From a virus, in IMG/VR virus record IMGVR_UViG_3300032820_000067, positions 1 to 31,523 of that record: a stretch of DNA of 31,523 bases; one strand, 5' to 3'. The first letter of the stretch is position 1. Every line of letters starts with the position of its first letter. The position numbers and the translations under genes were made by a program. Positions 16,801 through 31,523 of this stretch are shown piece after piece. A model generated the notes under the pieces. That model did no database searches and was not told where the DNA came from. It saw nothing but the letters and a program-made list of their open reading frames with translations.

Positions 16801-19800
16801 TGAAGTTCAATCTATAAATATTACTCCTTCGGTAGCTTTGAATTTAAGAGAAAAATATCTAAAGGATAAAAAGAACATTAAAGATAGTGATTATACTTTA
16901 GAGCGTGTTAAAGAAGAAATTGATAAGTTTCTTAAACCTCTTACAACAAAAGATGGAAAAATTAAGGGTGGAAGACAAATACAATTAACGGAAGAATTTA
17001 AGAATATACCTAATGTTGCTATAAAAACTATAGAAAAAATTGCTAATTATAAACCGCAAGTTAATCGTCTTGATTTTATAAGGGAAAAGGTTTTAGAAAC
17101 AACGAATCCAGAAATGAACGGTGCAATGCTTGATTTTCTTACTACTACAGATTTGAAAGGCAGACCAAAATTTGGCTGGATGGACATCAGCAAGAAAATT
17201 ATTTTTGGTGTAGGTCCAAATAATATTCCCTTTATATCTTTTACATTAAAAAATCAAAAGACAAAACCAAAGCCGATGCCACTAACCAGTGAAGGTGATA
17301 TAGATATTGATTTAGCAGAGAAACAAAAGGCAAATAATGAACATTTAGAAATTGTTCCTGCAACAGAAGCTTATATAACAGCAAAAGATATAGAGTCATC
17401 TGGTTCTGAGGCGGATTGGATAGCAAAGACAAATCCTTTATTTTTACCTGAACCTTGGACATATAATCTTGACGGAACAGTACGTCTTTTCGGTGTCCTT
17501 CCAGCAGAGACCGAAGGAGTAGGAAAAGAACGTCACGCAGCAGTAATGAAATTAGCAACGAGCAGGATTGGTAATAGATTTAATCAGAGAAGAGCTTTCT
17601 TGGATTTTTCGGAAGAAGTCTTTTCAAGAGGATCTATTTCTAAACCTGAAGAAGAAAAAGCCCGTGATCTCATAGAGGAATTAGGTATTAGTTTAGTGGG
17701 AACTAAACCTGAGATGATAGAAGATATAACAGTAATAGAAGAACCAGAATTTAAAGGTATTCTTCTACAGAAAAAAATTACACTTTCAACACTGAAAGAA
17801 ATTTTTGATGAAGTATTTCCAGAATTAACAGCATTAGAAATGGAAAACGCTAGAAAGGCTCAACTAGAAGGGGAGTCTTTAGATGAAACCGTTTACAGGA
17901 TAAGAATGGCAAAGAAAAAGGAAGATAAAGAACGGACAAAAAGAACCAATAAAGATTATAAAGATGCTGCTGCACGGGAACAGTTAAGATTACAAGACAC
18001 CTTCAGAGAACCTTTTGTTCAAGCACAAACGATTAACGTACTAGAAAATGAGTTGGAGAAATTAAAATATAATTATCAACAAAATCAATCTGCGATGTCA
18101 GATACACAACTTCAAGCAAAATCATCGGAAATAGAGGATCTTGAGAAACGTATTGAAGATTATAGAGAAAAGGTAGGTATTAAAGAAGTAGTAGAAGAAG
18201 AAGAGAAGGCGGCAGTGGAACGTGCTCCTAAAAGCGAATGGAAAGTCGAGTCAGATACTAAAGATAAATTAAAAGAAGCCTTAGTTGAAACAGATACAGA
18301 TCCAGAATCATCACCATTAAAAGCAGCTATATTAAATAAGAATATGGCAGATAGAGTAGTCGGTGAAGAAATTCTTCTGACTAATCAGGAACGACAGAAT
18401 ATTTTAAACTGGATTGCTGATAAACTTGGAAGTTCTGTTGAAGTTATTTTCTTGGCACAGAAACAACTTCAGGAAAAATGGAAGGATATGGGAGGAGCCG
18501 AAAGTTTAACAGATAGAGTCATGGCTTTTACTGATCCTGTCAGTCGTATCATTGTTCTATCTTCAGACAGAAACTTATTAGGCGATACCATACACGCAGC
18601 AGGTGAAGAAGTTTTTCACATGTTTGAAGCATTGGCTATGACTGCTAAAGAAAGAAAATTATTTGCTTCTGTTTTGAATCGTAAGCTGGCTGAAGAAAAT
18701 AATATAGATCTTAGTTCTTATTCAAAAGCACAACAAAATGAAGAAGCTAGAGCTAAACTGGTTGCGAGATATTTTAGTGGTATTCCTATAAAGGGACTGA
18801 CAACTCCTGTGAAACGTCTTCTCTATAAAATGAAGATGTTCCTAAACAGGTTGCATAAATTTATTACAGGAAAAGATTGGAAGTTAAGTCCAGAAGAACA
18901 GGTTATAAAAAATCTTGAACAACTTAACAACGGTGAATTAGCGGCCCGTGTAGGGGCATCTCCCAGTTTGGAGCAAGCTTCCGTTACAGCGAGTACAGGA
19001 TTATGGGGAGCCGTAAAAGGAAGTCATCTGCTTACAGCTAGTAAAAATTCTCTCAATGATCTTGTAAATGCACAGGATATCACCAATACAGGTAAAAGAC
19101 TGAGTTTATGGAATAGATGGATTACGCATTTAAGTGGAATGTCTGCCAAGTATCCTCTCTTTGGAACTTTTTATAATCATCTTGAAGAAGAGATAGCTTT
19201 AAGAAATAGATTTAAAAATAAGTCTTCTACAAATTTACAGGACTTTCTTGACGCAACACAGGCGATGTTACCGTGGGGAAAAAAGAATGCAGAAGCTAAA
19301 CGGATACTTAAAGATGTATCAACTTTTATAACGTTAGCAGATTTTTTAAATCTACGAAGAGATGAGATTATAGATTATACAATAGAATTAGAACCTTCTC
19401 CGATACCAGATGAAAAACGAATTAAATTGGTAACAGGTACAGACCAAGTTGTACCTACAGATGCTTACATGCTGGACAAGATGGGTCTTACAGGTCAGAA
19501 GTCATTTTCATTGACCGATGAAGCTTCTCAAAAAGCTTTTGATGCTGTTTATAAAACATTTAGAGACAGCTATCAGGATTATCAACGATCTTTTCTGAAA
19601 ATGTTATCTGATACAGGATTTTCTTTTATAGACGATGTGGCTAAAGGAGGAGAAAGAACCGTTTTTGATACTTTAGAGGCTAGACGAAAGTTTATACGAA
19701 TGCCGTCAATCGACTATAAGGATTTAAATACTAATATTTCCGGTTTATATCCTCGTCTTTTAGATTACGTAAAAGATTATCTGGTTATAAATGAAGATAC

Positions 19801-22633
19801 AGATGTAGTAGTTCCTTTTAACGGCATAAAAGAATATTATGAGAAAGCAAATAAAAGGTATCCACCAGGAATGGGAATAGATGAACCAGATGCAAAAGAA
19901 ATAGCTGAAAAGTCTACAGAATATTTACATGATAAATTAGAACGTGCTTCTAAAAGTCCTGCCTTTGGAGGAACCAGTACGACACCAGCCGTTCTTTACA
20001 AAAAACTATCACAATTATATTCATCATTTTCTACTTTGAAAGATATTGAACATAACATATATGTTCCTCATTTCCGATTAGGACAGAAGGCCGTCCATGT
20101 AGCACAGAAGAAATACGATAACAAAACAGGGAAAATAAAAACCAGAACTTATCAAAATGCAGAGGGAAAAACTATAACAGAAAACGTTATGGAAACTGTT
20201 ATGGTTCGACCTATACCACCTACACGATGGAAATCTGTAGGATTAGCTAACGCAGATATAAAAGCAACTGAACGAACAGCACGGGAGATAGCTGATCAGG
20301 CACGAAGAGAATTTCCTGAAAAAGACGGATACGATATAAAAATTATAGATTTTAATAAAGAAAGTCTTTTCGGTGATGCCAAAGGAAAGGAACAGGAAAG
20401 GTTATCTTTACGACGTGCTCTTCCTTTAATTGACAAAGCTTTAATGGCTTTAGGTGGATACGCTGCTGATCCAAATGATACTGAAACGTTGATGAAAGAT
20501 CCACGTAAAGGGCAGTATATAATGGATCTTATGGAGGAAATCCATCAGAAAGCAGGACAAAGAGCATTTGAAAGATTTACTACAGAACGAAGAGATCCAC
20601 CTATTGTTGGTTATTTTAACGAAGATAACAACGATGGAAGTTATTTATCAACGGCTCTTGAAAGATACATTAACAGTTCAGCAAATATTTCTTCAAGCTT
20701 GTGGCAACAGGCGGCTATTAACGATACTTTCAAAGTTCTGCAAGAGAGACAGCCTGGTCTTTATCAGTATGCTTTGGATTCATGGTTATACTTTAACACA
20801 TTCAGAGCACAAGATGAAGCGTTAAGAGCTTTTGCATTCCATGCTTTTCTTGGTTTTAATTTATCTTCTTCTGCTCTTAACCTGTTACAGATACCACAAT
20901 CTTCTTTTCCCATATTGGGAAGTATCATGGGAGCTACCAAGTCGGCGGCTTCTTTGTCGAAAGCTTTTCTTGATTCCAGTAGAATGCTTAAAGTTTTTGG
21001 TAAGCAAGCTGCTTCTTTAGGAGACTACGGTTTTAATTTCAGAGGAAAGAAACCGTCTCACGTTACACCTGATGAATGGAATATGTTAAAGACAATGCAC
21101 GATATAGGACAGATACAGCCTATTCAAAACTTGGATTTAGCAGGTGAATATTTTGGAGATACAGGTGGTTTGCAAAGATACGGTTTCTCTCGAAGAATTC
21201 TGTTTGCTTCTGCGTGGGCCTTTGGTTTAACAGAAAATATCAATCGTGTAGCTACTTCTTTATCTGCTTATCGAATGGCAAAGAGTAGTCTAAAAAATGA
21301 TAAAACAAAAAGACGTATTAAACTTTTTGCCCGTCATACACGTTTTGCTCCTTACTTTAAAATGATAGAGGACAGGCAGCGTCTTAATGGTTTGTTGATA
21401 AGTGAAGAAGGACTGCCTACTTACTTAAAAGGATTAAAAAAAGACGAACAATTTACTTTGTTAACTTCTCACATGATGATTGAGAAAACGCAGTTTATGA
21501 TGGGTAAACAGAATCGTCCTGGTTTGTTTCGAAATTTTCTAGGTCAACCAACGATTGCAGGATTAGCTACTCAGTTTCAAAGTTATCCATTTCAAATGAT
21601 GGAGAATTGGTCAGGTGCTTTTCAACGGGCGTTAACAGGTCGTTTCGGTTTCGAAGACGATGCAGGAACACCTACAGAATTAACACGAGAAGAAAGATTG
21701 ATGGCTTTAAAACAGGGTATCTTAATGACCAGTGGTTTTGTTGCATTCGCTGGATTGGTAGGTCTACCTTTTGCAGATGATACAAATGAATTATTAAAAA
21801 TAATGACTCGTAATCTGGGAGATAATATAGAATTTGATGCAATAAAATATTCTCGTAATGAAATGAATAAAATTTTTGGTGCTGAATTTACCGAAGGAAT
21901 TATGTATGGTCCTTTAACAAGATCGGCCCTTAACCTTGTTGGCTTTCCTATTGATCTATCAAGACGGGGAGGAATGGGAAGTTTAATTCCTTTTATGAGA
22001 GCTTTTACAGGGACACCTTCACCACAGGTTATGGTTGGTCCTGCTGGAACACGGATCTTTGATTGGGCGCAGGATCTTGTAAGAACAATGAACGATCCAG
22101 CTATGTCAGTTCCAATTAAAACATATGCCTTGTTAAGTTTTGCTTTTCCTGTAGCTCTTTCCAAGATATTCAGAACTTTTTCCGAAATACCAACCAGAGG
22201 TTTTACAACTAAATCAGGCATGACACTTATACCTCCTGATGAAATCAGCTGGCAACAGATTGTAAGTCACATGATAGGTTTTACACCAGGAGAATTAGCT
22301 AAAGAATATGAGAAACGTGGTATTAAAAACTATGCTAATCTTCGTACCCGTCCCGGTGCTCGAATCAGAGCAAATGCTATTGCCCGTTTAATGACAGATT
22401 CAATTGAAAATGACGATCCAGATAAATGGTCAAGAGCTATGGAGTTGTATTCAGAGGCTATAGATCACGATACAAATGCTATTTCACGAGGAGATTTAAC
22501 TTCTGTTTACGCTATCAGCTTCGGAAGAATTATTGATCTGGTTATGATGAATCTGAGCGAAGAGAAAAGAATATTACAACGAACACGTAAAATTGTTCGT
22601 CCTGCCTTAATGGAGCAACTTAATCCAATTTGA
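13820..22633 (+). CDS. Giant internal virion protein (2937 aa), polyvalent/ejection type, with degenerate zincin-like motif
   Basis: It starts with GTG at 13820; AGGA at 13806-13809 is ten bases upstream. The N terminus (I-D-S-L-P-H-L-G-T-V-T-I-P-D-G-L-N-D-E-Q-I) fits the short opening domain seen on many giant phage proteins. Residues ~195-245 form a Gly-zipper hydrophobic region (I-L-G-T-I-L-G-G-T-L-G-G-A-A), with more hydrophobic helices to ~395. Residues ~480-1500 are charged and coiled-coil-like. At residues 1592-1601, H-A-A-G-E-E-V-F-H-M resembles a zincin H-E-x-x-H helix but has Glu in place of the first His; a downstream N-E-E-A-R-A-K-L-V-A-R-Y could hold the third ligand. The C-terminal ~750 residues contain Q-F-Q-S-Y-P-F-Q-M-M and two hydrophobic helices (~2632-2650 and ~2764-2785), reminiscent of LPD38-type domains. 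Expected role: ejected protein that forms or stabilises a trans-envelope DNA channel. The zincin and LPD38 comparisons are inference. Confidence 0.85.
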   Translation: MQITIDSLPHLGTVTIPDGLNDEQIQEYIRDTYSDVLPDELKTSTFPNQMALPDISDIDLSNLPDMSNLAPPISTDPFMGIVPLSPSDYKPARGLQSIPKTDEGTALGRGLSSGISGFTTAIGTTFKLGLPGLVEEATGLDTVNRQDVARRYQQMQADAQVDKATVTWDDVSETFGKKGIIDGLDKLLTYTGEQIGRSLPYMGPTIAGAVTGSVILPIPILGTILGGTLGGAATFFGMNLERQIAEKSKATGKPPEPEELGFAGSAITAIPQAALDTALYLAFGPAARSLGVLGKSPTAFARQRAIAKDMGTKTAEELAAGRVALGKMLAKEIPKGMAIGTLVEAPTETMQQALERLQAGLPVDPANADAFAEYLESGIAGGLLGAVFGAGGGSFRGLSKRQRLQGIMRPYSEKVKALRAKGISFDDINQSMVREVDEEGKATSPGGWLGLARLYNKEVRATLRDRPTSDIIVGGTVPSDTTDTIDDDAVEVKKEDIDVKEELREGEIAAYKEVVKTALSDDQNPIDALVGVGFGLDQNTNKLNIEELNKIIGSVRGHNLSDEEIADAKERIEEGRPPRPPERTEEEVPPLKEGEAFEPLLQERGAVYQTAEQEARQKAEDERRTIKTAEEVSQRREVTGDIIRPFVGTEEYVSSRKEKIDRGEEEPEYYNPRHDPEAVPHLKLSLKQLKFPERWLPRAQQTSVLKQQEEQRKKQSAAEWNKIVSEMTPEEWKNSSQALERINKTLRRRRLIEEMRSPSYMLGPERVWRKGEEVYAVDPTATFATSFGTVDPETLIREEPDPPMALRRNVQLQRQMRTLRGAFSDTAYKEYLRKREEDRENSPELDADKQKLLLARIKNENEKKKYKLTKDEQQSFTTLRNKLENKIDLSNAETATLKRLTNKIDNYIKAEKDWLEVRADNKVAIKIDKALNILEEKRIQERLEKTDLEKKRIKQRVVVDADAAGPKTSASRIDLELFETAGTAIDHSYTDEKGEVQSINITPSVALNLREKYLKDKKNIKDSDYTLERVKEEIDKFLKPLTTKDGKIKGGRQIQLTEEFKNIPNVAIKTIEKIANYKPQVNRLDFIREKVLETTNPEMNGAMLDFLTTTDLKGRPKFGWMDISKKIIFGVGPNNIPFISFTLKNQKTKPKPMPLTSEGDIDIDLAEKQKANNEHLEIVPATEAYITAKDIESSGSEADWIAKTNPLFLPEPWTYNLDGTVRLFGVLPAETEGVGKERHAAVMKLATSRIGNRFNQRRAFLDFSEEVFSRGSISKPEEEKARDLIEELGISLVGTKPEMIEDITVIEEPEFKGILLQKKITLSTLKEIFDEVFPELTALEMENARKAQLEGESLDETVYRIRMAKKKEDKERTKRTNKDYKDAAAREQLRLQDTFREPFVQAQTINVLENELEKLKYNYQQNQSAMSDTQLQAKSSEIEDLEKRIEDYREKVGIKEVVEEEEKAAVERAPKSEWKVESDTKDKLKEALVETDTDPESSPLKAAILNKNMADRVVGEEILLTNQERQNILNWIADKLGSSVEVIFLAQKQLQEKWKDMGGAESLTDRVMAFTDPVSRIIVLSSDRNLLGDTIHAAGEEVFHMFEALAMTAKERKLFASVLNRKLAEENNIDLSSYSKAQQNEEARAKLVARYFSGIPIKGLTTPVKRLLYKMKMFLNRLHKFITGKDWKLSPEEQVIKNLEQLNNGELAARVGASPSLEQASVTASTGLWGAVKGSHLLTASKNSLNDLVNAQDITNTGKRLSLWNRWITHLSGMSAKYPLFGTFYNHLEEEIALRNRFKNKSSTNLQDFLDATQAMLPWGKKNAEAKRILKDVSTFITLADFLNLRRDEIIDYTIELEPSPIPDEKRIKLVTGTDQVVPTDAYMLDKMGLTGQKSFSLTDEASQKAFDAVYKTFRDSYQDYQRSFLKMLSDTGFSFIDDVAKGGERTVFDTLEARRKFIRMPSIDYKDLNTNISGLYPRLLDYVKDYLVINEDTDVVVPFNGIKEYYEKANKRYPPGMGIDEPDAKEIAEKSTEYLHDKLERASKSPAFGGTSTTPAVLYKKLSQLYSSFSTLKDIEHNIYVPHFRLGQKAVHVAQKKYDNKTGKIKTRTYQNAEGKTITENVMETVMVRPIPPTRWKSVGLANADIKATERTAREIADQARREFPEKDGYDIKIIDFNKESLFGDAKGKEQERLSLRRALPLIDKALMALGGYAADPNDTETLMKDPRKGQYIMDLMEEIHQKAGQRAFERFTTERRDPPIVGYFNEDNNDGSYLSTALERYINSSANISSSLWQQAAINDTFKVLQERQPGLYQYALDSWLYFNTFRAQDEALRAFAFHAFLGFNLSSSALNLLQIPQSSFPILGSIMGATKSAASLSKAFLDSSRMLKVFGKQAASLGDYGFNFRGKKPSHVTPDEWNMLKTMHDIGQIQPIQNLDLAGEYFGDTGGLQRYGFSRRILFASAWAFGLTENINRVATSLSAYRMAKSSLKNDKTKRRIKLFARHTRFAPYFKMIEDRQRLNGLLISEEGLPTYLKGLKKDEQFTLLTSHMMIEKTQFMMGKQNRPGLFRNFLGQPTIAGLATQFQSYPFQMMENWSGAFQRALTGRFGFEDDAGTPTELTREERLMALKQGILMTSGFVAFAGLVGLPFADDTNELLKIMTRNLGDNIEFDAIKYSRNEMNKIFGAEFTEGIMYGPLTRSALNLVGFPIDLSRRGGMGSLIPFMRAFTGTPSPQVMVGPAGTRIFDWAQDLVRTMNDPAMSVPIKTYALLSFAFPVALSKIFRTFSEIPTRGFTTKSGMTLIPPDEISWQQIVSHMIGFTPGELAKEYEKRGIKNYANLRTRPGARIRANAIARLMTDSIENDDPDKWSRAMELYSEAIDHDTNAISRGDLTSVYAISFGRIIDLVMMNLSEEKRILQRTRKIVRPALMEQLNPI

Positions 22634-22658
22634 CACCAGACATTAGGTAGTCTATATA
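22630..22658 (+). promoter_or_regulatory. Candidate sigma70 promoter (TTGACA-N17-TATATA) for the glycosyltransferase genes
   Basis: TTGACA at 22630-22635 and TATATA at 22653-22658 are separated by exactly 17 bases; the -35 matches the consensus fully. The -35 overlaps the stop codon of the giant gene (TGA 22631-22633). Transcription would begin near 22665, about three bases before the ATG at 22668, giving an almost leaderless message. No good Shine-Dalgarno is seen before that ATG. AT-rich DNA yields such matches by chance, so confidence is moderate. Confidence 0.45.
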
Positions 22659-22667
22659 AATTATATT

Positions 22668-23408
22668 ATGTATAACGTTTTTATAGGCTATGATTCCCGT
22701 GAAGGTGAAGCTTACGATGTCTGTAGTCATACCTTAACTCATCACGATAACGTAAATTGTTTTCCTCTTAATCATAGAACGTTAAGACAGGCAGGACTGT
22801 TTACCCGTGAATGGTTTGTAGAAGGTAACGGACAGTACATAGATGTTCAGGATGGTAAACCTTTTTCCACAGAATTTTCCCACTCCCGTTTTCTCACACC
22901 TGTTGTTGCTAAAAAAAGAGGACTGAAAGGCTGGGTACTTTTCGTTGACTGCGACTTTATGTTTCGAGCTTCCGTTAAATCGTTATTTGATATGGTTGAA
23001 GATAAGTACGCTGTGATGTGCGTTCAGTTTGATTGGGACAATCCTGACGAAAGAATAAAAATGGATGGTGTCACCCAATCAGCCTACCCTCGAAAACTAT
23101 GGTCTTCTCTTACGTTATGGAACCTCGATCATAAAGCTAACGATGCTGTTACAGCTAACTACGTAAACAAAACTGACGGCGGAAAGCTTCATGCGTTTAA
23201 CTGGTTAACGGATAAACAGATTGGAGCGTTACCGCCTGAATGGAATTATGTAACGGGTGTAACGAATAAGCATGTTATTCCTTCAGCTGTTCATTTTTCC
23301 AAAGGTGGACCGTGGCTTACTGTTCATCAGGATACACCGTATGCAGAAGAATGGCGTAAGAATTTTGTCGAGACACGTTTAAAATATACGCCAAGGATTT
23401 ACGATTAA
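22668..23408 (+). CDS. Glycosyltransferase, GT-A fold, GT8-like
   Basis: 246 aa. It begins Y-N-V-F-I-G-Y-D-S-R-E, the opening of a family of small GT-A glycosyltransferases found in phages and bacteria. F-S-T-E-F-S-H-S-R-F-L-T-P (residues 66-78) would line the nucleotide-sugar site, and L-F-V-D-C-D-F-M-F (residues 91-99) carries the D-x-D metal-binding pair (Asp94, Asp96). A C-terminal H-F-S-K-G-G-P-W (~207-214) resembles the H-x-x-G-x-x-K/P-W motif of GT8 enzymes that binds the diphosphate. The expected reaction is transfer of a sugar from a nucleotide sugar to a surface glycan or protein; donor and acceptor are unknown. Two bases separate it from the three-domain enzyme downstream, so they are probably co-transcribed. 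Confidence 0.85.
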   Translation: MYNVFIGYDSREGEAYDVCSHTLTHHDNVNCFPLNHRTLRQAGLFTREWFVEGNGQYIDVQDGKPFSTEFSHSRFLTPVVAKKRGLKGWVLFVDCDFMFRASVKSLFDMVEDKYAVMCVQFDWDNPDERIKMDGVTQSAYPRKLWSSLTLWNLDHKANDAVTANYVNKTDGGKLHAFNWLTDKQIGALPPEWNYVTGVTNKHVIPSAVHFSKGGPWLTVHQDTPYAEEWRKNFVETRLKYTPRIYD

Positions 23409-23410
23409 CA

Positions 23411-25690
23411 ATGAATAAAATACTGGTTGTTTCTTCTTTTCATACGTCAGCGTGGGAAGTCTACGGAAAAAACTTTGTTGATTCTTTTATCAAGAACTGG
23501 GACAAAGAAGTTGATCTTGTTATTTATTATGATGGACCTAACGCTGATAAGTTTTTACCTAAAGATGATTCTGAAATTGAATATAGGAACCTTGATGATA
23601 GCAAAGATCTGAAATGGTTTAAAAAAACTTATCCAAATCGGAACGGTAAGAACGAAAAAAAGGAATACAACTATCGGCTGGACGCTCTTAAATTTTCCCA
23701 TAAAAGTTTTGCCATGTCCGAAGCAGTACGCATCGTTGTTGAAAACAATCTGGATTACGAATGGGTCATCTGGCTGGATGCAGATGTTATAACTCGCGTT
23801 CCGTTTCCTACTGAAAAACTTCTTGAGATGCTGGGTAACTGTGAAGTAGCACATCTGGGACGAACGGCTATAGACTACAGTGAAACAGGTTTCATTGCGT
23901 TTAACGTTAAGAAGAACAATCACGCTACGGAACTGATCGTAGATCTGGAAGGACTGTACCTGAGTGGAGAACTGTTCGGGTATCGGGAATGGACAGATGC
24001 TTTTGTTTTCACACGTCTTCTGAAACTTCACGAGGCACACGGTCTGGTAGTTAACGATCTGAGTTTAGGCTGTCCTGATCTGAATGCGTTTGAAGCTTCT
24101 CCTCTGGGAAGTTACCTTACCCATAAAAAAGGAAATAAAAAATACGAGAACAAGGAAGCTGTTCCGACTACCGTGAAAACACGTTACGACGTTATTAATA
24201 AATTGATTGCTGAATATAAGTGTAGCAATATTCTTGAAGTAGGAACATGGAATGGCGATAGGGCAATATCTATGGCACAAGCTGCGTTTAAAAATAGCGA
24301 TGTGGTGCATTACACTGGATTTGATTTGTTTGAAGAGGCGAATAAAGAAACGGATCAAAAAGAATTCAACGTAAAAATTCATTTCTCTGAGAAAGAAGTA
24401 AAAGAAAAACTGAATGAGTATGCTACTGACGTAAGAAAGGACGGGAAGATATTTACCTATTGCATTATCAAAGGTAATTCCCGTTACAGTTTACGACGGT
24501 TAAAGGATAACGATTTCTGCAACATTCAGAATATAAAACCTGACTTTGCTTTTATAGATGGTGGGCATAGTATTGAAACCATTACCTCTGATTTTGAAAA
24601 CTTAAAAGATAAATCACCTATCATTGTATTTGACGATTACTATACAGCTGATCCTGTCGGGAGTATACCTGACGTTGAGAAGTACGGTTCTAATAAACTA
24701 TTTGATAATATAGATATTGACGGTTCCAAAAAGTTTCTGGTACAGGCTAATGATCGTGTTAAAGATGGTGGCTTTACTAACTTGGGCGTTCTTCTTATAC
24801 GACCCACTCTTCCTCTTCCCAACTTTCCTGAAAGTGTAGGAGCCAACCAGATACCTATTAGGGTACGGCCAAAAGATTGTATGCCCGATGAACATATTCA
24901 TGCGAATATAGAGGCAAATGAAAAGAAACTGGATAAATGGATTATAAAAAAGGGAAGATTAAATAACGAGCATATCATTATTGCTTCAGGCGGTCCTTCC
25001 CTTTTAAAGTATATAAAAGATTTAAAAAGTTACAAAAAGAAAACAGGAGCTAAAGTTGTCTGTGTTAAACATTCTCTTCCTGTTCTTCTGGAAAACAATA
25101 TTGTACCGTGGGCCTGTATGATTCTTGATCCACGTCCTGTTGACGGTGTATCCACTCACGGTGTAGTGCGTTCTACATTATTTGATAACGTTCCCAAAGC
25201 AACTAAATTCTTCGTAGCTTCAATGACAGATATATCAGTTCTGGATTTACTTATTAAAAAGAAAGCGGATATATATGGATGGCATGCCTATTCAGATGCG
25301 ATTAAAGAGTACGAGCCGTTAAAGAACAAGATGCTGGTTACAGGAGGAACGTGTGCGGCCATGAGAGCGTTAGGTCTGATGTTTACGTTAGGCTTTAGAA
25401 AGTTCAAGATGTACGGTTTTGATTCTTCGTTTGATGAGGAGCCAAAGGATAAAAAAGCTGTAGACGAAAATAACAGAAAGAAATATATTCATGTAGGACT
25501 AGGAGCTACTACAGAGAAATTCTGGACAACCGGAGAACTGCTGGCGATGGCACAGGATTTCGAAGAACTTCTGGGAAGAGAAGATATAGATATTGATCTG
25601 GATGTACAGTGTGGTGGTTTAATTCAGGCTATATGGAACGACAAAGTTCAGAAGAAACGTCCAACTTATAAAGAGATATTAAAACAATGA
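23411..25690 (+). CDS. Three-domain glycan enzyme: GT-A glycosyltransferase + class I methyltransferase + MptE/DUF115-like domain
   Basis: 759 aa. Residues 1-235 are a GT-A transferase with W-L-D-A-D-V-I (D-x-D at 123-125). Residues ~256-465 are a SAM-dependent methyltransferase of the Methyltransf_24 kind: I-L-E-V-G-T-W-N-G-D (274-283) binds SAM, F-I-D-G-G-H (381-386) and V-F-D-D-Y (406-410) match the later motifs. Residues ~520-745 match the MptE-like/DUF115 domain (A-S-G-G-P-S-L at 525-531; L-D-P-R-P at 572-576; G-G-T-C-A-A at 645-650; M-Y-G-F-D at 667-671), a fold found in Maf flagellin glycosyltransferases and archaeal 6-hydroxymethylpterin pyrophosphokinase. Leu codons are CTG in 17 of 27 cases in the first domain but 2 of 15 in the methyltransferase, suggesting separate origins. 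Likely builds and O-methylates a surface or virion glycan. Domain calls are firm; the substrate is unknown. Its stop overlaps the next ATG (ATGA). Confidence 0.85.
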   Translation: MNKILVVSSFHTSAWEVYGKNFVDSFIKNWDKEVDLVIYYDGPNADKFLPKDDSEIEYRNLDDSKDLKWFKKTYPNRNGKNEKKEYNYRLDALKFSHKSFAMSEAVRIVVENNLDYEWVIWLDADVITRVPFPTEKLLEMLGNCEVAHLGRTAIDYSETGFIAFNVKKNNHATELIVDLEGLYLSGELFGYREWTDAFVFTRLLKLHEAHGLVVNDLSLGCPDLNAFEASPLGSYLTHKKGNKKYENKEAVPTTVKTRYDVINKLIAEYKCSNILEVGTWNGDRAISMAQAAFKNSDVVHYTGFDLFEEANKETDQKEFNVKIHFSEKEVKEKLNEYATDVRKDGKIFTYCIIKGNSRYSLRRLKDNDFCNIQNIKPDFAFIDGGHSIETITSDFENLKDKSPIIVFDDYYTADPVGSIPDVEKYGSNKLFDNIDIDGSKKFLVQANDRVKDGGFTNLGVLLIRPTLPLPNFPESVGANQIPIRVRPKDCMPDEHIHANIEANEKKLDKWIIKKGRLNNEHIIIASGGPSLLKYIKDLKSYKKKTGAKVVCVKHSLPVLLENNIVPWACMILDPRPVDGVSTHGVVRSTLFDNVPKATKFFVASMTDISVLDLLIKKKADIYGWHAYSDAIKEYEPLKNKMLVTGGTCAAMRALGLMFTLGFRKFKMYGFDSSFDEEPKDKKAVDENNRKKYIHVGLGATTEKFWTTGELLAMAQDFEELLGREDIDIDLDVQCGGLIQAIWNDKVQKKRPTYKEILKQ

Positions 25691-26013
25691 CTGATGTTAT
25701 TAAATTTCCAATTAAAAGTATAGTCCGTTCTGTTCAAAATGATTTACCTGATGAAGACCATGAAAAAATAAGAAAAATTATTTTGGAATCAATGGATGAA
25801 ATAAAAGAAGAGATCGAAGAAAATAAAAATATAAATGGTATTGTTGTATTGGCTTTTGAAGACAAGGGGAAAATGCCAAAAACTTACGATTGGTTTGCTG
25901 GCGATCTTAGTTTATCTGGAGTATATTTAACGTTGGATAAATTAAAAATAGAATTGATGGAAGTTGTAAGTAATAAAGATGAAAAGAACGAAGATAACGG
26001 AGAAGAAAGGTAA
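25687..26013 (+). CDS. Small hypothetical phage protein
   Basis: 108 aa, overlapping the previous stop by ATGA, so translationally coupled. Residues 15-48 are a charged helix (D-H-E-K-I-R-K-I-I-L-E-S-M-D-E-I-K-E-E-I-E-E-N). A strand I-N-G-I-V-V-L-A-F-E-D follows, then D-W-F-A-G-D-L-S-L-S-G-V-Y-L-T-L-D-K-L-K-I-E-L-M, and an acidic tail. The last pattern, a strand, loop and helix ending L-D-K-x-K-x-x-L-M, resembles small proteins next to lysis genes in marine phages, none with known function. It has no membrane segment. It lies immediately before the holin. I do not recognise the family. Confidence 0.78.
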   Translation: MTDVIKFPIKSIVRSVQNDLPDEDHEKIRKIILESMDEIKEEIEENKNINGIVVLAFEDKGKMPKTYDWFAGDLSLSGVYLTLDKLKIELMEVVSNKDEKNEDNGEER

Positions 26014-26018
26014 CGACT

Positions 26019-26429
26019 ATGGTTTTTGGAATAGCTGAATCAGTAATAGGTGTAGCCGGAAAAGTTCTGGATAAGTTTGTAGAAGATAAAGATCTTAAAA
26101 CAAAACTGGATTTCGAATTACGAAAAGCTTACACTGATGCCAACCTTGGGCAAATCGAAATAAATAAGGAAAGTGCGAAGCATCCTTCCATCTTTGTCGC
26201 CGGAGCTAGACCAAGCATCATGTGGATATGTGCTTTTGGATTGGCGTGGCAATTCGTATTCTTGCCCTGTGCTACATGGTACATGACTGTCAGCGGTACT
26301 CCCGTTGTTCTACCAGATATTCAAACTGAAGGATTAATGAGCTTGACGTTGGCTCTTTTAGGACTTGGTGGCATGCGTACTTTCGAAAAGCGGAATAACA
26401 CCCACAGAAATAATATGAAGCATTCTTAG
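26019..26429 (+). CDS. Holin (GTA/phage 3TM holin family)
   Basis: 136 aa. Residues 1-55 are amphipathic and charged, ending in the family signature H-P-S-I-F-V-A-G-A-R-P-S-I-M-W-I (55-70). Membrane segments follow at ~66-90 (C-A-F-G-L-A-W-Q-F-V-F-L-P-C) and ~104-121 (G-L-M-S-L-T-L-A-L-L-G-L-G-G-M-R), then T-F-E-K-R. This matches the holin family known from the Rhodobacter gene transfer agent and marine phages (PF11351). It would insert in the inner membrane and trigger lysis timing. No endolysin is recognisable beside it or elsewhere in the window. Its stop (TAG 26427-26429) overlaps the stop of the opposing gmd gene, so there is no room for a terminator between the two transcription units. 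Confidence 0.88.
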   Translation: MVFGIAESVIGVAGKVLDKFVEDKDLKTKLDFELRKAYTDANLGQIEINKESAKHPSIFVAGARPSIMWICAFGLAWQFVFLPCATWYMTVSGTPVVLPDIQTEGLMSLTLALLGLGGMRTFEKRNNTHRNNMKHS

Positions 26430-27481
26430 CCGAATTCTTTAACGTCCCAATCCACCATCTCTTGAGCCAGAGTATGAAGTGTGTGTTTCCGTTTCCATTG
26501 AAGATGGCTCTGTGCTTTGATGGAAATGCCCAACAACATATCAACTTCAGAAGGACGAAAGAATTCTTCAGATGTTTGTACAATAAGATGACCTGTCTTA
26601 TTATCCTGTACACTGAAATCTTTTCCGAAACCGTTAAAGGATACGTCCCATTTCATCTTTTCCAAAACAAGTTGCAGGAAATTTCTTACTCTGGTTGTTA
26701 ATCCTGTTGCTATAACAAAATCATCTGCCTTGTCCTGTTGAAGCATTAACCACATGGCGTCAACGTAATCTTCAGCATGCCCCCAATCTCTTTCCGCTTC
26801 AACGTTTCCCAACTTGAGAACATGTTTTTGCTGGTCGTATTTCTTTTCTCTTAACAACCTGGAAATAACGGCCAGGTTCTTGGTTATTTTACGGGTAACA
26901 AATTCTTCTCCGCGCAACGGACTTTCATGGTTGAACAGAATGCCGCACGAAATAAACATATCGTAAGCTTCCCGATAGTTGATGCAAGTGTGATGAGCAA
27001 ATGCCTTGGCCGTCCCATAAGGACTGCGTGGATGAAAGCGTGTCATTTCTGTTTGTGGTGTCTCCCGAACTTTACCAAACATTTCCGAACTGGATGCCTG
27101 ATAAATTCTCGGTTTATAAGAAGAGTCACTTAACATAACGTGACGTACAGCTTCCAGTAAATTCAGTATACCTACAGCAATAACGTTTGTTGTATAGATA
27201 GGTATTTCAAAACTCGACTGTACAAAACTCATGGCTCCCAAATTATATATCTCGTCAGGTTTTATTTTTTCTACTATCCTCCACAGACTTTCGTACTCTG
27301 TTAAATCTCCGTCGTGAATAATAATATTTTTATCCATGTTTAATTTTTTAAGACGCCAAAGGTTAGGTGCACTGTTGCGACGAACCAATCCGTGCACCTC
27401 ATAGTTTAGTGTTTTAAAGAGCAATCGGGACAGATAAGCACCGTCTTGCCCTGTAATGCCCGTGATTAAAGCTTTTTTCAT
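26426..27481 (-). CDS. gmd: GDP-mannose 4,6-dehydratase
   Basis: 351 aa, full length for the family. Converts GDP-D-mannose to GDP-4-dehydro-6-deoxy-D-mannose, the precursor of GDP-fucose, GDP-rhamnose and GDP-perosamine. Visible features: Rossmann G-x-x-G-x-x-G in T-G-I-T-G-Q-D-G (7-14), R-R-N-S near 34-37, N-L-G-A-M-S-F-V (80-87), catalytic S-S-S-E-M-F-G (130-136), Y-x-x-x-K (Tyr155, Lys159), N-H-E-S-P-L-R-G (184-191) and the C-terminal F-R-P-x-E-V-D motif (308-314). All key residues are present, so it should be active. The ATG at 27481 has AAGGG eight bases upstream; a GTG 36 codons earlier is rejected because the extension lacks family similarity. A 137-base non-coding leader (27482-27618) precedes it on this strand. 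It is the last gene of the minus-strand series and faces the glycosyltransferase genes. Reductase or epimerase partners are not in the window. Confidence 0.94.
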   Translation of the reverse strand: MKKALITGITGQDGAYLSRLLFKTLNYEVHGLVRRNSAPNLWRLKKLNMDKNIIIHDGDLTEYESLWRIVEKIKPDEIYNLGAMSFVQSSFEIPIYTTNVIAVGILNLLEAVRHVMLSDSSYKPRIYQASSSEMFGKVRETPQTEMTRFHPRSPYGTAKAFAHHTCINYREAYDMFISCGILFNHESPLRGEEFVTRKITKNLAVISRLLREKKYDQQKHVLKLGNVEAERDWGHAEDYVDAMWLMLQQDKADDFVIATGLTTRVRNFLQLVLEKMKWDVSFNGFGKDFSVQDNKTGHLIVQTSEEFFRPSEVDMLLGISIKAQSHLQWKRKHTLHTLAQEMVDWDVKEFG

Positions 27482-27618
27482 GTTGTGACCCTTAAATTTA
27501 GATAAATCGCTGAGAAAGGACGTAGAGAGCCGTACAGAAGAATTGATACGATTCTGGTAGGGTGGGTAGGAAAAGGTACGAGATGACACCTCAGTGACGC
27601 TATACGAGCTTGTTTTTG

Positions 27619-27819
27619 TCAGTCACACTTGCAAGATAGCTTAACCATCTCACTTTGTATCTCATTTACTCTTAGTTTAAGAACATCTACGGCTGTATGA
27701 AGATGACCCGTATCATGCTCTTCAAACCTGTCTTCAAGGATATTTATCTCCCTGAAAAGGAAGTTCATGTGGTTGATCATGCTCTGCATGTTTTCTGTAT
27801 TCAGTTCAGTTGTTTCCAT
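27619..27819 (-). CDS. Small coiled-coil hypothetical protein ending in Cys-x-Cys
   Basis: 66 aa from the ATG at 27819. The ATG at 27864 would add 15 residues but overlap the end of the preceding gene, which stops at 27834, so the shorter form is chosen. The sequence is largely helical (M-N-F-L-F-R-E-I-N-I-L-E-D-R-F-E-E-H-D, then H-T-A-V-D-V-L-K-L-R-V-N-E-I) and ends S-C-K-C-D. No membrane segment or known domain. Function unknown; the Cys pair and two His could bind a metal, but that is speculation. Confidence 0.68.
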   Translation of the reverse strand: METTELNTENMQSMINHMNFLFREINILEDRFEEHDTGHLHTAVDVLKLRVNEIQSEMVKLSCKCD

Positions 27820-27833
27820 AATGATTATCTTTA

Positions 27834-28043
27834 TTATTCCATAAAGGTTGAAGTACTTCCCCATCCTGTTGGTGTCTCTTCAAGTTTACCAACAGGAAGA
27901 ACATATATTTCTGTGTCAACAGAATCAGGACCGTCAGGCCAGATTGATGCGTTAAAGAACGAAGAAGAAAAAGATGTTAAAATACCATACCCTTCCTGTT
28001 TTCTCGTAAACCTGTACCATTTCCAGTATCCACGTTTATACAT
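27834..28043 (-). CDS. Small hypothetical protein
   Basis: 69 aa, ATG at 28043, with AGGGTAGAAATTAAG just upstream as a weak ribosome binding site. The start is basic and aromatic (M-Y-K-R-G-Y-W-K-W-Y-R-F-T-R), the centre holds F-F-N-A-S-I-W-P-D-G-P-D, and the end is T-G-W-G-S-T-S-T-F-M-E. No family recognised and no membrane segment. It fills the space between the Nfu-like gene and the 66-aa gene without overlap, in the same direction, which is the main reason to accept it. Confidence 0.6.
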   Translation of the reverse strand: MYKRGYWKWYRFTRKQEGYGILTSFSSSFFNASIWPDGPDSVDTEIYVLPVGKLEETPTGWGSTSTFME

Positions 28044-28077
28044 CTTAATTTCTACCCTGTCAAAGAATTAACCTTCA

Positions 28078-28347
28078 TCAGCTACCATACCAAGGATGAA
28101 CAACTTCTCCTTCTTCGTGGGAAACTGTTTTTACGTCATCAGGAAATAATTCTATGAGCGTCTGCTCTACACCCATCTTTAACGTAAATATACTAGCCGC
28201 ACATCCTGCACAAGAACCTGATAACTTAACGTGAACATTTTTATTTTCTTCATCGTAAGACAGTAACTGAATAACTCCTCCGTGTTGAGCAATAGAAGGA
28301 GCTACTTGATCAGCCAGTACATCTTCAATCTTTGCAAACATTGTCAT
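28078..28347 (-). CDS. NifU C-terminal/Nfu-type Fe-S cluster carrier
   Basis: 89 aa consisting of one NifU C-terminal (Nfu) domain. I-E-D-V-L-A-D-Q-V-A-P-S-I-A-Q-H-G-G-V-I-Q (7-27) and L-S-G-S-C-A-G-C-A-A-S-I-F-T-L-K-M-G-V-E (42-61) match the family, with Cys46 and Cys49 as the C-x-x-C that binds a bridging 4Fe-4S cluster between two subunits. The usual Pro/Ser after the second Cys is Ala here. It would receive and pass on Fe-S clusters in the cytoplasm. The ATG at 28347 is chosen because AAGGAG lies ten bases upstream; an ATG two codons later is less well spaced. It has only the Nfu domain, lacking the A-type domain of bacterial NfuA, so it is a minimal phage-encoded version. It follows nrdJ and a tiny membrane ORF on the same strand. 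Confidence 0.9.
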   Translation of the reverse strand: MTMFAKIEDVLADQVAPSIAQHGGVIQLLSYDEENKNVHVKLSGSCAGCAASIFTLKMGVEQTLIELFPDDVKTVSHEEGEVVHPWYGS

Positions 28348-28361
28348 TATTAAAATGCTCC

Positions 28362-28439
28362 TTAAAAAATTAACCAGATGATTCCTGAGAGTACAATAAT
28401 ATCTGCACAGATAGACCAGACAATATAAGTTCTTAACAT
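28362..28439 (-). CDS. Candidate 25-residue single-pass membrane peptide
   Basis: A short ORF in the gap between nrdJ and nfu. ATG at 28439 opens M-L-R-T-Y-I-V-W-S-I-C and continues as one hydrophobic helix to the end (I-I-V-L-S-G-I-I-W-L-I-F, then TAA at 28362-28364). The positive charge sits at the N terminus, consistent with an N-in transmembrane helix. AAGG lies about 12 bases upstream, a so-so ribosome binding site. The stop immediately precedes the AAGGAG that serves nfu, a spacing expected of real adjacent genes. No homologue is known to me. It could also be chance in AT-rich DNA. Confidence 0.45.
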   Translation of the reverse strand: MLRTYIVWSICADIIVLSGIIWLIF

Positions 28440-28458
28440 CCACTTACTCACGCCTTGC

Positions 28459-30144
28459 CTAAACTCCACAGCTTCCACCATGTCCTGTTATATGGCAAAT
28501 ATCGTGTGTCTCAACGTTCTCTTCAAATTCTTCGCCCAGTTTGTCAGCAGCTTCTTTATATGAGACACGAGTAAGAGGCTGACCACCACGACACCCATCA
28601 GGGTAAACAGTAAAACCTCGTAGACGACAAGCATAAGAAGCAAGGACGTTAGTAAAATCATCCACCATATCTTCATTGTTCAGTTTACTTCCCCACTGTG
28701 GTAAATTAATTGTAGAAGAAATAGACATGTCCACATAGTCTTGAACGTCTGCCTGAAACGCTATTCTTCTTTTGTAGTTTTCGGAAAGGTCGAGAGCCGA
28801 TTCAATCTTGTCAGGAGAAATTCCGTACAGATCTATAATTTCCTGCGCTGCACTATCTACGACATATTGGTAATGCCAACGGCTTTGACCTTTAAGAAAC
28901 CGTCGCTTGTAAGCTACAGCAAAGATAGGTTCAATACCTGTGCTGGTTCCAGCCAGTATACCTATGGAACCAGTAGGAGCGATAGCACGATTAGCAACAG
29001 GTCTGGAGATTTCCAACGTATCCGAAAACGAGGAACTGGTCTTGTCGGATACGCCTTTGTAGACAGAAAGCCACTTGTGCAGTTCAGGTGAAACTTCATA
29101 TTTGTACTTACGTTTAATGAGCCACTCATGCATACCCATTAAACCTAAACCAAGTCGTCGGTTCTTGTCCCTTACCTTGTAAACTTTATCGTAAGGAAGT
29201 TGAGCTTTCAGTGTACCACAGAGAAGAAACTTTGTTGCCAGTTCAATTATCTGAGAAAACTCCCTAATATTATCGACACGACCCAGATTAACGCTGCCCA
29301 GATTACATACGTCACTGTCGTCTTCGGAGGAGACTTCTGTACAAGCATTCCGTAGCGTTTCTTCTTCCTTGTCAAAAAAGTTAAACGAGAAGCCTGGTTC
29401 TCCCGTACTAAGTGCTTGTTGTACATTGGTTTTAAATACATCTCCTGTATCTTTGTTCTCCATATAATTAAGAATCCAATCGGTATCATAATTAACGGAT
29501 ATGTTGGTCATGTCCAACGGACAGGAAAAGTTAAAATCCTGTTCCTTGATTTGACCGTAACTATATTCAGTATCGCCTACTGTCATTTCATACCAGTTCT
29601 TAGTGGTTAGAAATTTTTCTACATCACGATGTTGCCAGTTTAAACTTGCATAGATAGCAGAACGACGACTGCCTCCCTGCATAACTCGTCTTCCTATTTC
29701 GTTAATCATTAACATTTTGGGAATAGGGCCAGAAGCTAGTCCACCTGTTCCTCTTAAAACTTCTCCTTCAGGACGGTAGATAGAATAATCAACACCTATT
29801 CCTCCACCTGTCATTAAACAAGATTCAGATTTCCACGACAGGTTTGCCCAATCTTCCCGTGTATCTTCTTCGGCTTTTAACAGAAAACAGTTGTTAAAGA
29901 ATTTGTTAGTTCGTCCTGCGTAATAAAGATAACGTCCACCGGGAATAAATTTTAAATCAGTAATAATATTGATAAGCTCATCGACTTCATCAGAAGTAAG
30001 ATGTGTATCACATACATCGTGAACCAGTGTACGGGCCAGATCAGACCAAGTTTCACAACCTGTATGCTGGTATTTAAGTTTAAAAATATCTTCGCTGAAT
30101 TTAGAGCGAAACATAGGATTCTCATTGCTTCTAAACGTCGGCAT
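28459..30144 (-). CDS. nrdJ: Ribonucleotide reductase, class II (adenosylcobalamin-dependent) type
   Basis: 561 aa. Reduces ribonucleotides to deoxyribonucleotides for phage DNA synthesis. Key residues: Cys96 (N-N-C-F-L-L) and Cys280 (V-C-N-L-G-S-V-N-L) form the active-site redox pair; N-A-C-T-E at 266-270 gives Asn266, the thiyl-radical Cys268 and Glu270; T-G-G-G-I-G (112-117) and A-P-T-G-S-I-G (389-395) bind substrate phosphate. The C-terminal C-H-I-T-G-H-G-G-S-C (Cys550, Cys559) is the tail pair that re-reduces the site. There is no N-terminal ATP cone. The short length and the absence of a small-subunit gene next to it support class II, which needs host-supplied or scavenged B12. Class assignment is by motif and length; the active-site set is certain. 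The start ATG has GGAG 13 bases upstream inside a small inverted repeat. Confidence 0.92.
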   Translation of the reverse strand: MPTFRSNENPMFRSKFSEDIFKLKYQHTGCETWSDLARTLVHDVCDTHLTSDEVDELINIITDLKFIPGGRYLYYAGRTNKFFNNCFLLKAEEDTREDWANLSWKSESCLMTGGGIGVDYSIYRPEGEVLRGTGGLASGPIPKMLMINEIGRRVMQGGSRRSAIYASLNWQHRDVEKFLTTKNWYEMTVGDTEYSYGQIKEQDFNFSCPLDMTNISVNYDTDWILNYMENKDTGDVFKTNVQQALSTGEPGFSFNFFDKEEETLRNACTEVSSEDDSDVCNLGSVNLGRVDNIREFSQIIELATKFLLCGTLKAQLPYDKVYKVRDKNRRLGLGLMGMHEWLIKRKYKYEVSPELHKWLSVYKGVSDKTSSSFSDTLEISRPVANRAIAPTGSIGILAGTSTGIEPIFAVAYKRRFLKGQSRWHYQYVVDSAAQEIIDLYGISPDKIESALDLSENYKRRIAFQADVQDYVDMSISSTINLPQWGSKLNNEDMVDDFTNVLASYACRLRGFTVYPDGCRGGQPLTRVSYKEAADKLGEEFEENVETHDICHITGHGGSCGV

Positions 30145-30154
30145 GATGTTTAGC

Positions 30155-30187
30155 TTTCTCCTATTTAAAATAGGAAAATATATTATA
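30155..30187 (-). promoter_or_regulatory. Possible -10 box and RBS-overlapping inverted repeat upstream of nrdJ
   Basis: On the minus strand the nrdJ leader holds TATAAT (30187-30182) and, just downstream, an inverted repeat at 30174-30160 (CCTATT-TTA-AATAGG) whose right arm runs into the AGGAG ribosome binding site. No convincing -35 is seen 17 bases upstream of the TATAAT. The hairpin could partly hide the ribosome binding site. The stem has only six base pairs, mostly A-U, so it may have no effect. Confidence 0.25.
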
Positions 30188-30190
30188 TGA

Positions 30191-30394
30191 TCAGGGACTG
30201 AGACGAGGAACTTTAAATTTTAGATTACTTCGTATGACCCAAACGTAATTATCAGGACTGACTTCTTCTCTTAAAACAAATGCTTTTACAGAAGGATGCC
30301 CCTGCTTATGATAATATTCTTCTATCTTACGTGCGAGTCTGAGAGAGTCGTTTCGACTAGAGAGATAATCAATCGGAAGAATATTATTTATCAT
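30191..30394 (-). CDS. Small hypothetical protein
   Basis: 67 aa. AGGA ten bases before the ATG at 30394 supports the start. The N-terminal half is helical with L-R-L-A-R-K-I-E-E-Y-Y-H-K-Q-G-H, followed by V-K-A-F-V-L-R-E and V-W-V-I-R-S-N-L-K-F, a helix-strand-strand layout. Basic overall, no membrane segment, no known motif. It lies 15 bases after the DUF3310 gene and 46 bases before nrdJ, so it is probably in the same transcript. Function unknown. Confidence 0.72.
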   Translation of the reverse strand: MINNILPIDYLSSRNDSLRLARKIEEYYHKQGHPSVKAFVLREEVSPDNYVWVIRSNLKFKVPRLSP

Positions 30395-30409
30395 GGTATA
30401 GCTATCCTA

Positions 30410-30772
30410 TCAATTATCACCATTATCCACAAACGTATCGTCTATCGTCTTAAAATAATTAGATAAATATGTCTCGTCAATTTTACCACATTCCTCCATT
30501 AATTTACACAAGTACCAATGAGCCTTTCCCAGATCTTCCATCGGCTTGTTTTTATAAGCGTACCGCCAAAGATATTTCTCAACGTTTCCTTTTAAATACC
30601 CTAAAAATTCTATCTGGGTCATGCTGGCTTCAATCGCCGCAATTGCTTCAATATCGTTACGATTATAATGAGGTGGTTTAGCTACTTCGTTCTTCATCAT
30701 AATATCTTTTCGAATAGCTTGCCATCCTGGCGAATCGTTAGGTATGTTGGCAAAAACATTTGGCTGGCTCAT
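30410..30772 (-). CDS. DUF3310 family protein (T7 gp1.7-like nucleotide kinase family)
   Basis: 120 aa. AAGGAG eight bases before the ATG at 30772 is a strong ribosome binding site. The DUF3310 signature is clear: K-P-P-H-Y-N-R-N-D-I-E-A-I-A-A-I-E (32-48), F-L-G-Y-L-K-G-N-V-E-K-Y-L-W-R-Y (56-71) and K-P-M-E-D-L-G-K-A-H-W-Y-L (76-88). The family includes T7 gp1.7, reported as a nucleotide kinase, and many phage proteins of unknown activity. A role in nucleotide supply fits the neighbouring nrdJ. The first ~28 residues are an extension before the domain. Family assignment is firm; enzymatic activity of this member is inference. Confidence 0.86.
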   Translation of the reverse strand: MSQPNVFANIPNDSPGWQAIRKDIMMKNEVAKPPHYNRNDIEAIAAIEASMTQIEFLGYLKGNVEKYLWRYAYKNKPMEDLGKAHWYLCKLMEECGKIDETYLSNYFKTIDDTFVDNGDN

Positions 30773-30778
30773 TGTTGA

Positions 30779-31246
30779 TTACTCCTTTGCACTGTTAAGC
30801 AGAACGTTTATACGTCTGTGAACAAACTTTAAATCTTTGCTCAAGACTCGATTAAAAAATTTTCTACCGTAGTCGGGAGCAATTCCTGCCAATTCACAGA
30901 TAGGCTCATATGTAGAGGCAGTAACACAGGAAGGTAGAGTAAACCATTTAAGAGCAGACTGTCTAGCTTTTTCTGAGGAAACTGGTTCTTCTTCTGTTTT
31001 AGGTTTGGTTGCGTCTAATAACGCCTGTAGAAATACAGAAATAAAGAGAAGTTTTTCGGGAACAGCTGTTTTATTTGTTTGAACTGAGGAAAGCCACAAA
31101 AAATCGTTATGTTTTTCTTTATTGAATATATGTTGAAGATCATCTTCATAATAATTTAGAAGTTCTTTTAAATCTTCATAACTAAATTCTCTATGATCTG
31201 TCTTGTCCGTTAGTTTTTTGTTGTCTTCTTTTTCTTTTTCTTCCAC
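30779..31246 (-). CDS. Hypothetical protein of the phage DNA-metabolism module
   Basis: 155 aa from a GTG at 31246, the only start between an upstream in-frame stop and the conserved-looking region; the protein has no internal Met. The start lies inside the end of the endonuclease I gene (56-base overlap). An AAGGA sits only two bases from the GTG, so true initiation could be slightly downstream at a non-ATG codon. The first 20 residues are Lys/Glu/Asp-rich. Residues ~25-90 are helical, and the second half contains A-R-Q-S-A-L-K-W-F-T-L-P-S-C-V-T-A-S-T-Y-E (~99-119) and A-G-I-A-P-D-Y-G-R-K-F (~126-136), the latter resembling a helix-turn-helix. A DNA-binding role is possible but unproven. Confidence 0.75.
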   Translation of the reverse strand: MEEKEKEDNKKLTDKTDHREFSYEDLKELLNYYEDDLQHIFNKEKHNDFLWLSSVQTNKTAVPEKLLFISVFLQALLDATKPKTEEEPVSSEKARQSALKWFTLPSCVTASTYEPICELAGIAPDYGRKFFNRVLSKDLKFVHRRINVLLNSAKE

Positions 31247-31523
31247 TTTCCTTGATCCATGCTTTCGGTATTATTTTGTCGGCCCATTTAAAAGAATTCT
31301 TGTCGCACCATTGAGCTACCGTTGTTTTTGCTTTGGGAGCAATAGAAAGATTAGGATTCTGAAAGACAAAACGTATATCTAAATCAGGGTATTGATCCTT
31401 TATCAGTAAATGTTTCCTTCTATCATCACTAAAGAATCTTCCTTTTAATTCTATTATAATACCATTAGGTAAAACAAGGTCAGGAAGATAATGTCGTTCA
31501 ATAGAAGGAACGATAAAATTTAT
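31191..31523 (-). CDS. Endonuclease I, T7 gp3-type Holliday-junction resolvase (5' end outside window)
   Basis: 110 C-terminal codons are visible; the start lies beyond the right edge. L-P-D-L-V-L-P-N-G-I-I-I-E-L-K-G holds Asp, Glu and Lys at visible positions 15, 25 and 27, the same spacing as Asp55, Glu65 and Lys67 of T7 endonuclease I. D-D-R-R-K-H-L-L-I-K-D-Q-Y-P-D-L-D-I-R-F-V-F and F-K-W-A-D-K-I-I-P-K-A-W-I-K-E follow the T7 sequence closely. The enzyme is a dimeric, Mg-dependent nuclease that cuts branched DNA and also degrades host DNA. The C-terminal tail (K-R-K-R-R-Q-Q-K) is basic. The counterpart of T7 Glu20 is outside the window. The 3' end overlaps the next gene by 56 bases. Confidence 0.92.
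   Translation of the reverse strand: MNFIVPSIERHYLPDLVLPNGIIIELKGRFFSDDRRKHLLIKDQYPDLDIRFVFQNPNLSIAPKAKTTVAQWCDKNSFKWADKIIPKAWIKESGRKRKRRQQKTNGQDRS

Follow-up and report, generated by a model that had tools for sequence, protein, structure and literature searches.

An optional gene for a stand-alone Nfu-type iron-sulfur carrier downstream of a class II ribonucleotide reductase gene in a marine phage

The nfu gene of a marine phage, located next to a gene for a class II ribonucleotide reductase (RNR), is a genuine, selected and optional gene for an iron-sulfur (Fe-S) carrier; the carrier would be supplied with clusters by the host, and its best phage-encoded client is predicted to be a Cas4-domain exonuclease. 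Taken as a whole, this reading falls just short of an even prospect in our judgement. At the level of sequence, we document the Nfu fold with its CxxC motif, selection on the gene, its optional presence and a putative four-cysteine site in the exonuclease. The stretch of DNA analysed (the window) is an entire IMG/VR virus record of 31,523 bp, which bears out the original prediction that the gene is phage-borne. Because the record ends inside an endonuclease I gene, it is probably an incomplete genome. Positions 20000-31523 of the window had no near match in the phage collection.

On the minus strand the genes read in the order endonuclease I (31191-31523, truncated by the contig end; PF05367, E=5.4e-39), a 155-aa frame, a DUF3310 protein, a 67-aa frame and nrdJ, followed on the 3' side by nfu, two small frames and a GDP-mannose dehydratase gene. 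The frame next after nfu (69 aa; 27834-28043, minus strand) forms the right-hand flank of the nfu cassette and is 86-96% identical in two related loci, L011 and L012. The 111-nt gap between nrdJ and nfu, both on the minus strand, agrees with the predicted position of nfu directly downstream of a class II RNR; it contains the end of a 39-codon, membrane-peptide-like frame (28362-28481, minus strand), which overlaps the nrdJ 3' end and is retained in L012, which has no nfu. The virion gene block of the window contains a very long frame of 2937 aa (13820-22633, plus strand). The product of nrdJ (28459-30144, minus strand; 561 aa) matched Ribonuc_red_lgC (Pfam, E=1.2e-48), and its best NCBIfam match was NrdJ_Z (TIGR02504, E=1.8e-63), yet with 215 bits against a curated cut-off of 400. 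Among solved structures, the B12-dependent RNR of Thermotoga comes closest (E=1e-34; aligned to 1xjk/1xje). The protein thus combines the active-site cysteine (motif N266-x-C268-x-E270), the redox cysteine pair (C86/C280) and the B12-type relatives of a class II RNR with a score under the NrdJ_Z cut-off. A B12-type RNR needs no cluster, as had been argued beforehand, and NrdJ is implausible as an Fe-S client.

The nfu gene (28078-28347, minus strand) encodes a stand-alone Nfu/NifU domain of 89 aa. It starts with ATG, preceded by a Shine-Dalgarno-like hexamer, AAGGAG (28358-28363, minus strand); an alternative, longer frame starts with GTG (28078-28443, 121 aa), and the alignment of relatives begins at the ATG. 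The product matched PF01106 (NifU) with E=3.7e-20 and 72.3 bits (Pfam cut-off, 27), and its CxxC motif, C46-A-G-C49 (28201-28212, minus strand), provides the expected cluster ligands, both of them invariant among 42 aligned viral Nfu sequences, so that the intact, stand-alone domain described in the original prediction was recovered. An AlphaFold2 model based on the alignment of the 42 viral copies (pLDDT 86.6) was, among solved structures, most similar to the C-terminal domain of human NFU1 (2m5o, E=2.2e-5), and it also resembled plant CnfU (2z51, E=1.6e-4). With a domain above the Pfam cut-off, an intact CxxC in a conserved loop and the Nfu fold, we identify the 89-aa protein with high confidence as an Nfu-type carrier, which would bind [4Fe-4S] clusters. 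It is not an NfuA: the degenerate A-type N-terminal domain is missing, and the NfuA profile was matched at positions 106-177 of 190 alone, with 55 bits against a cut-off of 269. Bacterial Nfu (Nfu_N plus NifU) and NfuA have the NifU domain, the CxxC and the fold in common with the phage protein, but differ from it in their N-terminal domain, whereas the phage protein has a viral P-Y-Y-like tail.

Purifying selection acts on nfu, with dN/dS of about 0.05-0.1 (dN 0.063 and dS 0.629 between the window and locus L002; dN 0.019 and dS 0.418 between L004 and L005). The sporadic presence of nfu, together with a clean empty site in a relative (see below), could suggest a passenger gene of no use to the phage, but such selection and the retention of nfu across a deep viral clade make this the least probable of the explanations considered, and an extremely improbable one. 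In the comparison of the window with L002, synonymous sites are saturated in nrdJ but not in nfu, suggesting that nfu was probably exchanged between these two lineages after their split.

A regular linkage of nrdJ and nfu, for which a survey had been proposed, did not emerge. Among the best 80 of at least 594 confirmed nrdJ loci, nfu adjoins nrdJ in three (L002, L011 and L010, in the last of which nfu is cut by the contig after 18 codons), and it is present in two of the 76 loci that include at least 450 nt downstream. The relative L012 has the same neighbours as the window (identities of 97% for NrdJ, 96% for the 69-aa protein, and 100% for both an 81-aa protein and the dehydratase), and in the alignment nfu and its ribosome-binding site are absent from it at a clean empty site, although L012 is a contig of 10.7 kb and nfu might be present elsewhere in that genome. 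Absence of nfu beside unchanged neighbours had been named in advance as evidence against the prediction; what it refutes is an obligate nrdJ-nfu unit, which the 3/80 count likewise rules out, and not the function of an Fe-S carrier. Both observations identify nfu as an optional cassette, placed where an early operon ends, rather than as an RNR accessory gene. An 8-bp repeat, GGTTAATT, flanks nfu on both sides in the window and is present as a single copy in L012; loss of nfu by recombination across the repeat, or equally its gain there, would both give this pattern. Within a second, distant RNR lineage, nfu occupies the post-RNR slot in three of 42 contigs (L004, L005 and L272, the latter being the same contig as L101), and the slot is otherwise filled by other cassettes or empty; it is a place for optional genes. 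Viewed from the 82 nfu loci, the RNR is found up to 0.7 kb upstream of nfu in six, on the opposite strand in eight, downstream on the same strand in 34 (32 of them at 2-4 kb, the T4-like set), and was not seen on the stretch examined in another 34. Most of the contigs compared are genome fragments.

Cobaviruses (Lentibacter phage ICBM1, SIO1) display the same order of Cas4-domain exonuclease, endonuclease and B12 RNR; in ICBM1, however, the RNR is directly followed by a glutaredoxin gene instead of nfu. The CxxC of Nfu might thus be regarded as a thiol-disulfide donor that re-reduces NrdJ from the slot of the glutaredoxin, and neither the window nor the podovirus-like records with nfu (G001-G029) contain a glutaredoxin or thioredoxin gene. 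We consider this very unlikely, because glutaredoxin is also missing from all of the 50 relatives without nfu (0/50), so that the slot needs no reductant, because the slot of the second RNR lineage is empty or holds other cassettes, and because nfu is far from the RNR in many phages. An alternation of glutaredoxin and Nfu after the RNR is likewise unsupported. If true, a redox partnership with NrdJ would be a second job for the Fe-S carrier.

The original prediction had regarded Nfu as uncommon in phages, but a scan with the viral Nfu alignment confirmed Nfu relatives on 278 viral stretches, the best 80 of which were retained. In a tree of 103 Nfu domains (82 columns), one clade (100/92) takes in most of the sampled viral Nfu proteins and comprises 58 rows: 25 podovirus-like (24 of which are grouped at 100/99), 32 T4-like and one from a Rickettsiales bin, the labels podovirus-like (T7) and T4-like having been given by locus number and shared neighbours and not by a taxonomic tool. 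Locus L009 has IscU and radical SAM genes in common with the T4-like set. Cyanophage P-SSM2 and one of the two Nfu copies of locus L111 are placed outside the viral clade. A C-terminal tail of the form P-[YFW]-[YF] (P85-W86-Y87 in the window, 28087-28095, minus strand) was found in 78 of 83 viral copies (two of the five exceptions are cut by contig ends) versus one of 75 genome-contig copies, which were selected by likeness to the viral protein and are not a fair sample of bacteria. The sole genome contig with the tail (L162, PALK01000009.1), from the Rickettsiales bin, shows synteny around nfu with T4-like phages; this bin thus contains phage DNA. Stand-alone NifU domains are also known from the marine cyanophages P-SSM2 and P-TIM68 (38% and 32% identity to the phage Nfu); the domain of P-SSM2 lacks the tail, and that of P-TIM68 was too short and was left out of the tree and the tail count. 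An origin from gammaproteobacterial NfuA, considered because of a similar tail (Salmonella NfuA ends in EHSYY), found no support in the tree of 82 columns: the viral copies were placed beside alphaproteobacterial Nfu, although NfuA was represented by a single row on a long branch. That viral Nfu proteins form a clade distinguished by a tail suggests an old viral tool, not a fresh copy of a host gene.

The lack of the N-terminal domain of cellular Nfu/NfuA and the virus-specific tail might also be expected of a decoy, i.e., a stand-alone domain that rivals the host Nfu and keeps clusters from reaching host or defence enzymes, whether by diverting or by blocking them. We judge this highly improbable: both ligand cysteines are retained under selection, and the linkage of nfu with IscU and A-type carrier genes in other phages points to supply and not to blockade. 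Among records with nfu, IscU was identified in 8 of 49, an A-type carrier in 5 of 49, glutaredoxin in 10 of 49 and radical SAM proteins in 2 of 50 (both with IscU). IscU is found just upstream of nfu in seven of the 82 nfu loci, all T4-like (L155:5810-6631 and six more), with nothing between the two genes; the copy in L155 has the IscU cysteines. The 99-kb record L111/G031 (IMGVR_UViG_3300047362_000477) contains an Fe-S island (L111:8763-11710, within 3 kb) that encodes a SufT/PaaD-type protein, a ferredoxin, two Nfu proteins from overlapping genes, one of cellular and one of viral type, and an A-type carrier. IscU is encoded elsewhere in the record, which also gave 18 radical SAM matches, of which 15 exceed the family cut-off. 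A podovirus-like phage with nfu also encodes an ErpA-like A-type carrier (L006:10930-11319, minus strand).

Viral genes of the IscU and ErpA type have been described (PMC5332604, PMC9038755); they too belong to Fe-S assembly, but represent a scaffold and A-type carriers, and neither nfu nor nifu is mentioned in the main text of PMC5332604, while nifu is also absent from the accessible part of PMC9038755. As far as its accessible text goes, PMC5332604 names the Cas4 exonuclease as a viral Fe-S protein and reports a T4-like genome similar to L111/G031, in which an A-type carrier gene is accompanied by 12 radical SAM genes, cas4, grx and paaD, while the corresponding part of PMC9038755 reports IscU and ErpA genes in phages of the HMO-2011 type. 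NifU has been recorded, in the available portions of the respective papers, from Cariaco viral contigs (PMC7785012) and from viruses of an oxygen minimum zone (PMC8940887). With IscU, A-type carriers and NifU already published, the phage nfu joins an established class of viral Fe-S genes. As no IscU gene was found in the window and a local profile search of the window gave no match to an A-type carrier, the clusters for the phage Nfu would come from the ISC/SUF machinery of the host as the likely donor. We suggest that nfu would be expressed late within an early operon for nucleotide metabolism, and that Nfu would hand the clusters to apo-proteins in demand during infection; the cassette is gained and lost among relatives, and nrdJ is not its partner.

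As the best phage-encoded client we propose an exonuclease that belongs to the same replication module. L011, the nearest relative with nfu, encodes a Cas4-domain exonuclease of 292 aa (L011:7664-8542; phrog_1990, E=5.6e-45) directly before endonuclease I, as does L012, and this order is also seen in ICBM1. The Cas4/RecB-like nuclease that the original prediction had suggested looking for was thus found in relatives, whereas the window ends before its position. The relatives of the exonuclease in SIO1, P12053L and ICBM1 are likewise named Cas4-domain exonuclease in RefSeq. A structural model (pLDDT 92.7) resembled Cas4 SSO0001 (4ic1, Z 10.4), human Exo5 (Z 9.2) and lambda exonuclease (Z 10.9); since folds of the lambda-exonuclease type are equally alike, the fold alone is uninformative on a cluster. 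Among 46 long, distinct exonucleases chosen from 82 matches, C247, C250 and C256 are invariant (46/46), and a fourth cysteine is located either at the N-terminal Cas4 position (12/46) or at a C-terminal CY position 18 residues before C247 (C229; 34/46), never at both and never at neither, although the two arrangements trace to a single switch in the tree of these sequences, so that the 12/34 split counts as a single observation. Of the isolates, CRP-13 has the N-terminal site, SIO1, ICBM1, HTVC115P and phiM6 have the C-terminal site, and HMO-2011 has the C-terminal site and a further cysteine near the N-terminal one. Cas4, AddB and Exo5 hold a [4Fe-4S] cluster through such a set of four cysteines, and the set found in all 46, and in L011 and L012, is cluster-like and forms a putative four-cysteine Fe-S-type site. 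In T4-like phages, a PD-(D/E)XK exonuclease (phrog_298, e.g., L155:6609-7289) follows nfu at a median distance of 20 nt; a PD-(D/E)XK nuclease right after nfu (45 of 82 loci) was rejected as an Fe-S client, having no conserved cysteine cluster.

The Cas4-domain exonuclease is present in all five podovirus-like records with nfu of at least 40 kb, in 13 of the 30 records G000-G029 (mostly short records), and on the stretch examined in 70 of 80 nrdJ loci (the best 80 of at least 594); it is a core gene of this phage group. Since 68 of these 70 loci are without nfu, the phage Nfu is not required for maturation of the exonuclease, and none of 12 T4-like records with nfu contained the exonuclease. 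That most close relatives have the exonuclease but no nfu, and that T4-like phages carry nfu without the exonuclease, would be expected if Nfu had an auxiliary metabolic role, keeping host [4Fe-4S] enzymes (e.g., lipoyl synthase and enzymes of the TCA cycle) loaded when host protein turnover and oxidative stress rise during infection. Published readings of viral Fe-S genes also favour such a supply, as far as the accessible parts of PMC7785012 and PMC8940887 indicate, but it accounts for the viral tail and the single viral clade no better than a phage client does. We regard it as a possible explanation and a serious rival, and the actual clients may be host enzymes. The exonuclease as a main client of Nfu is put forward tentatively, on the strength of its conserved cysteines. 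Of the earlier proposal that the carrier serves an enzyme other than the RNR, the candidate enzyme stands, found in relatives, but the supposed rarity of the gene and any regular linkage to nrdJ do not.

Fe-S assembly is in part encoded by marine phages, and the phage Nfu bears on which proteins profit from this. New here are a viral clade of Nfu proteins marked by a tail and the case that four cysteines make for a phage exonuclease as client; a single-domain carrier and a core phage exonuclease would make a pair small enough for testing in the tube.
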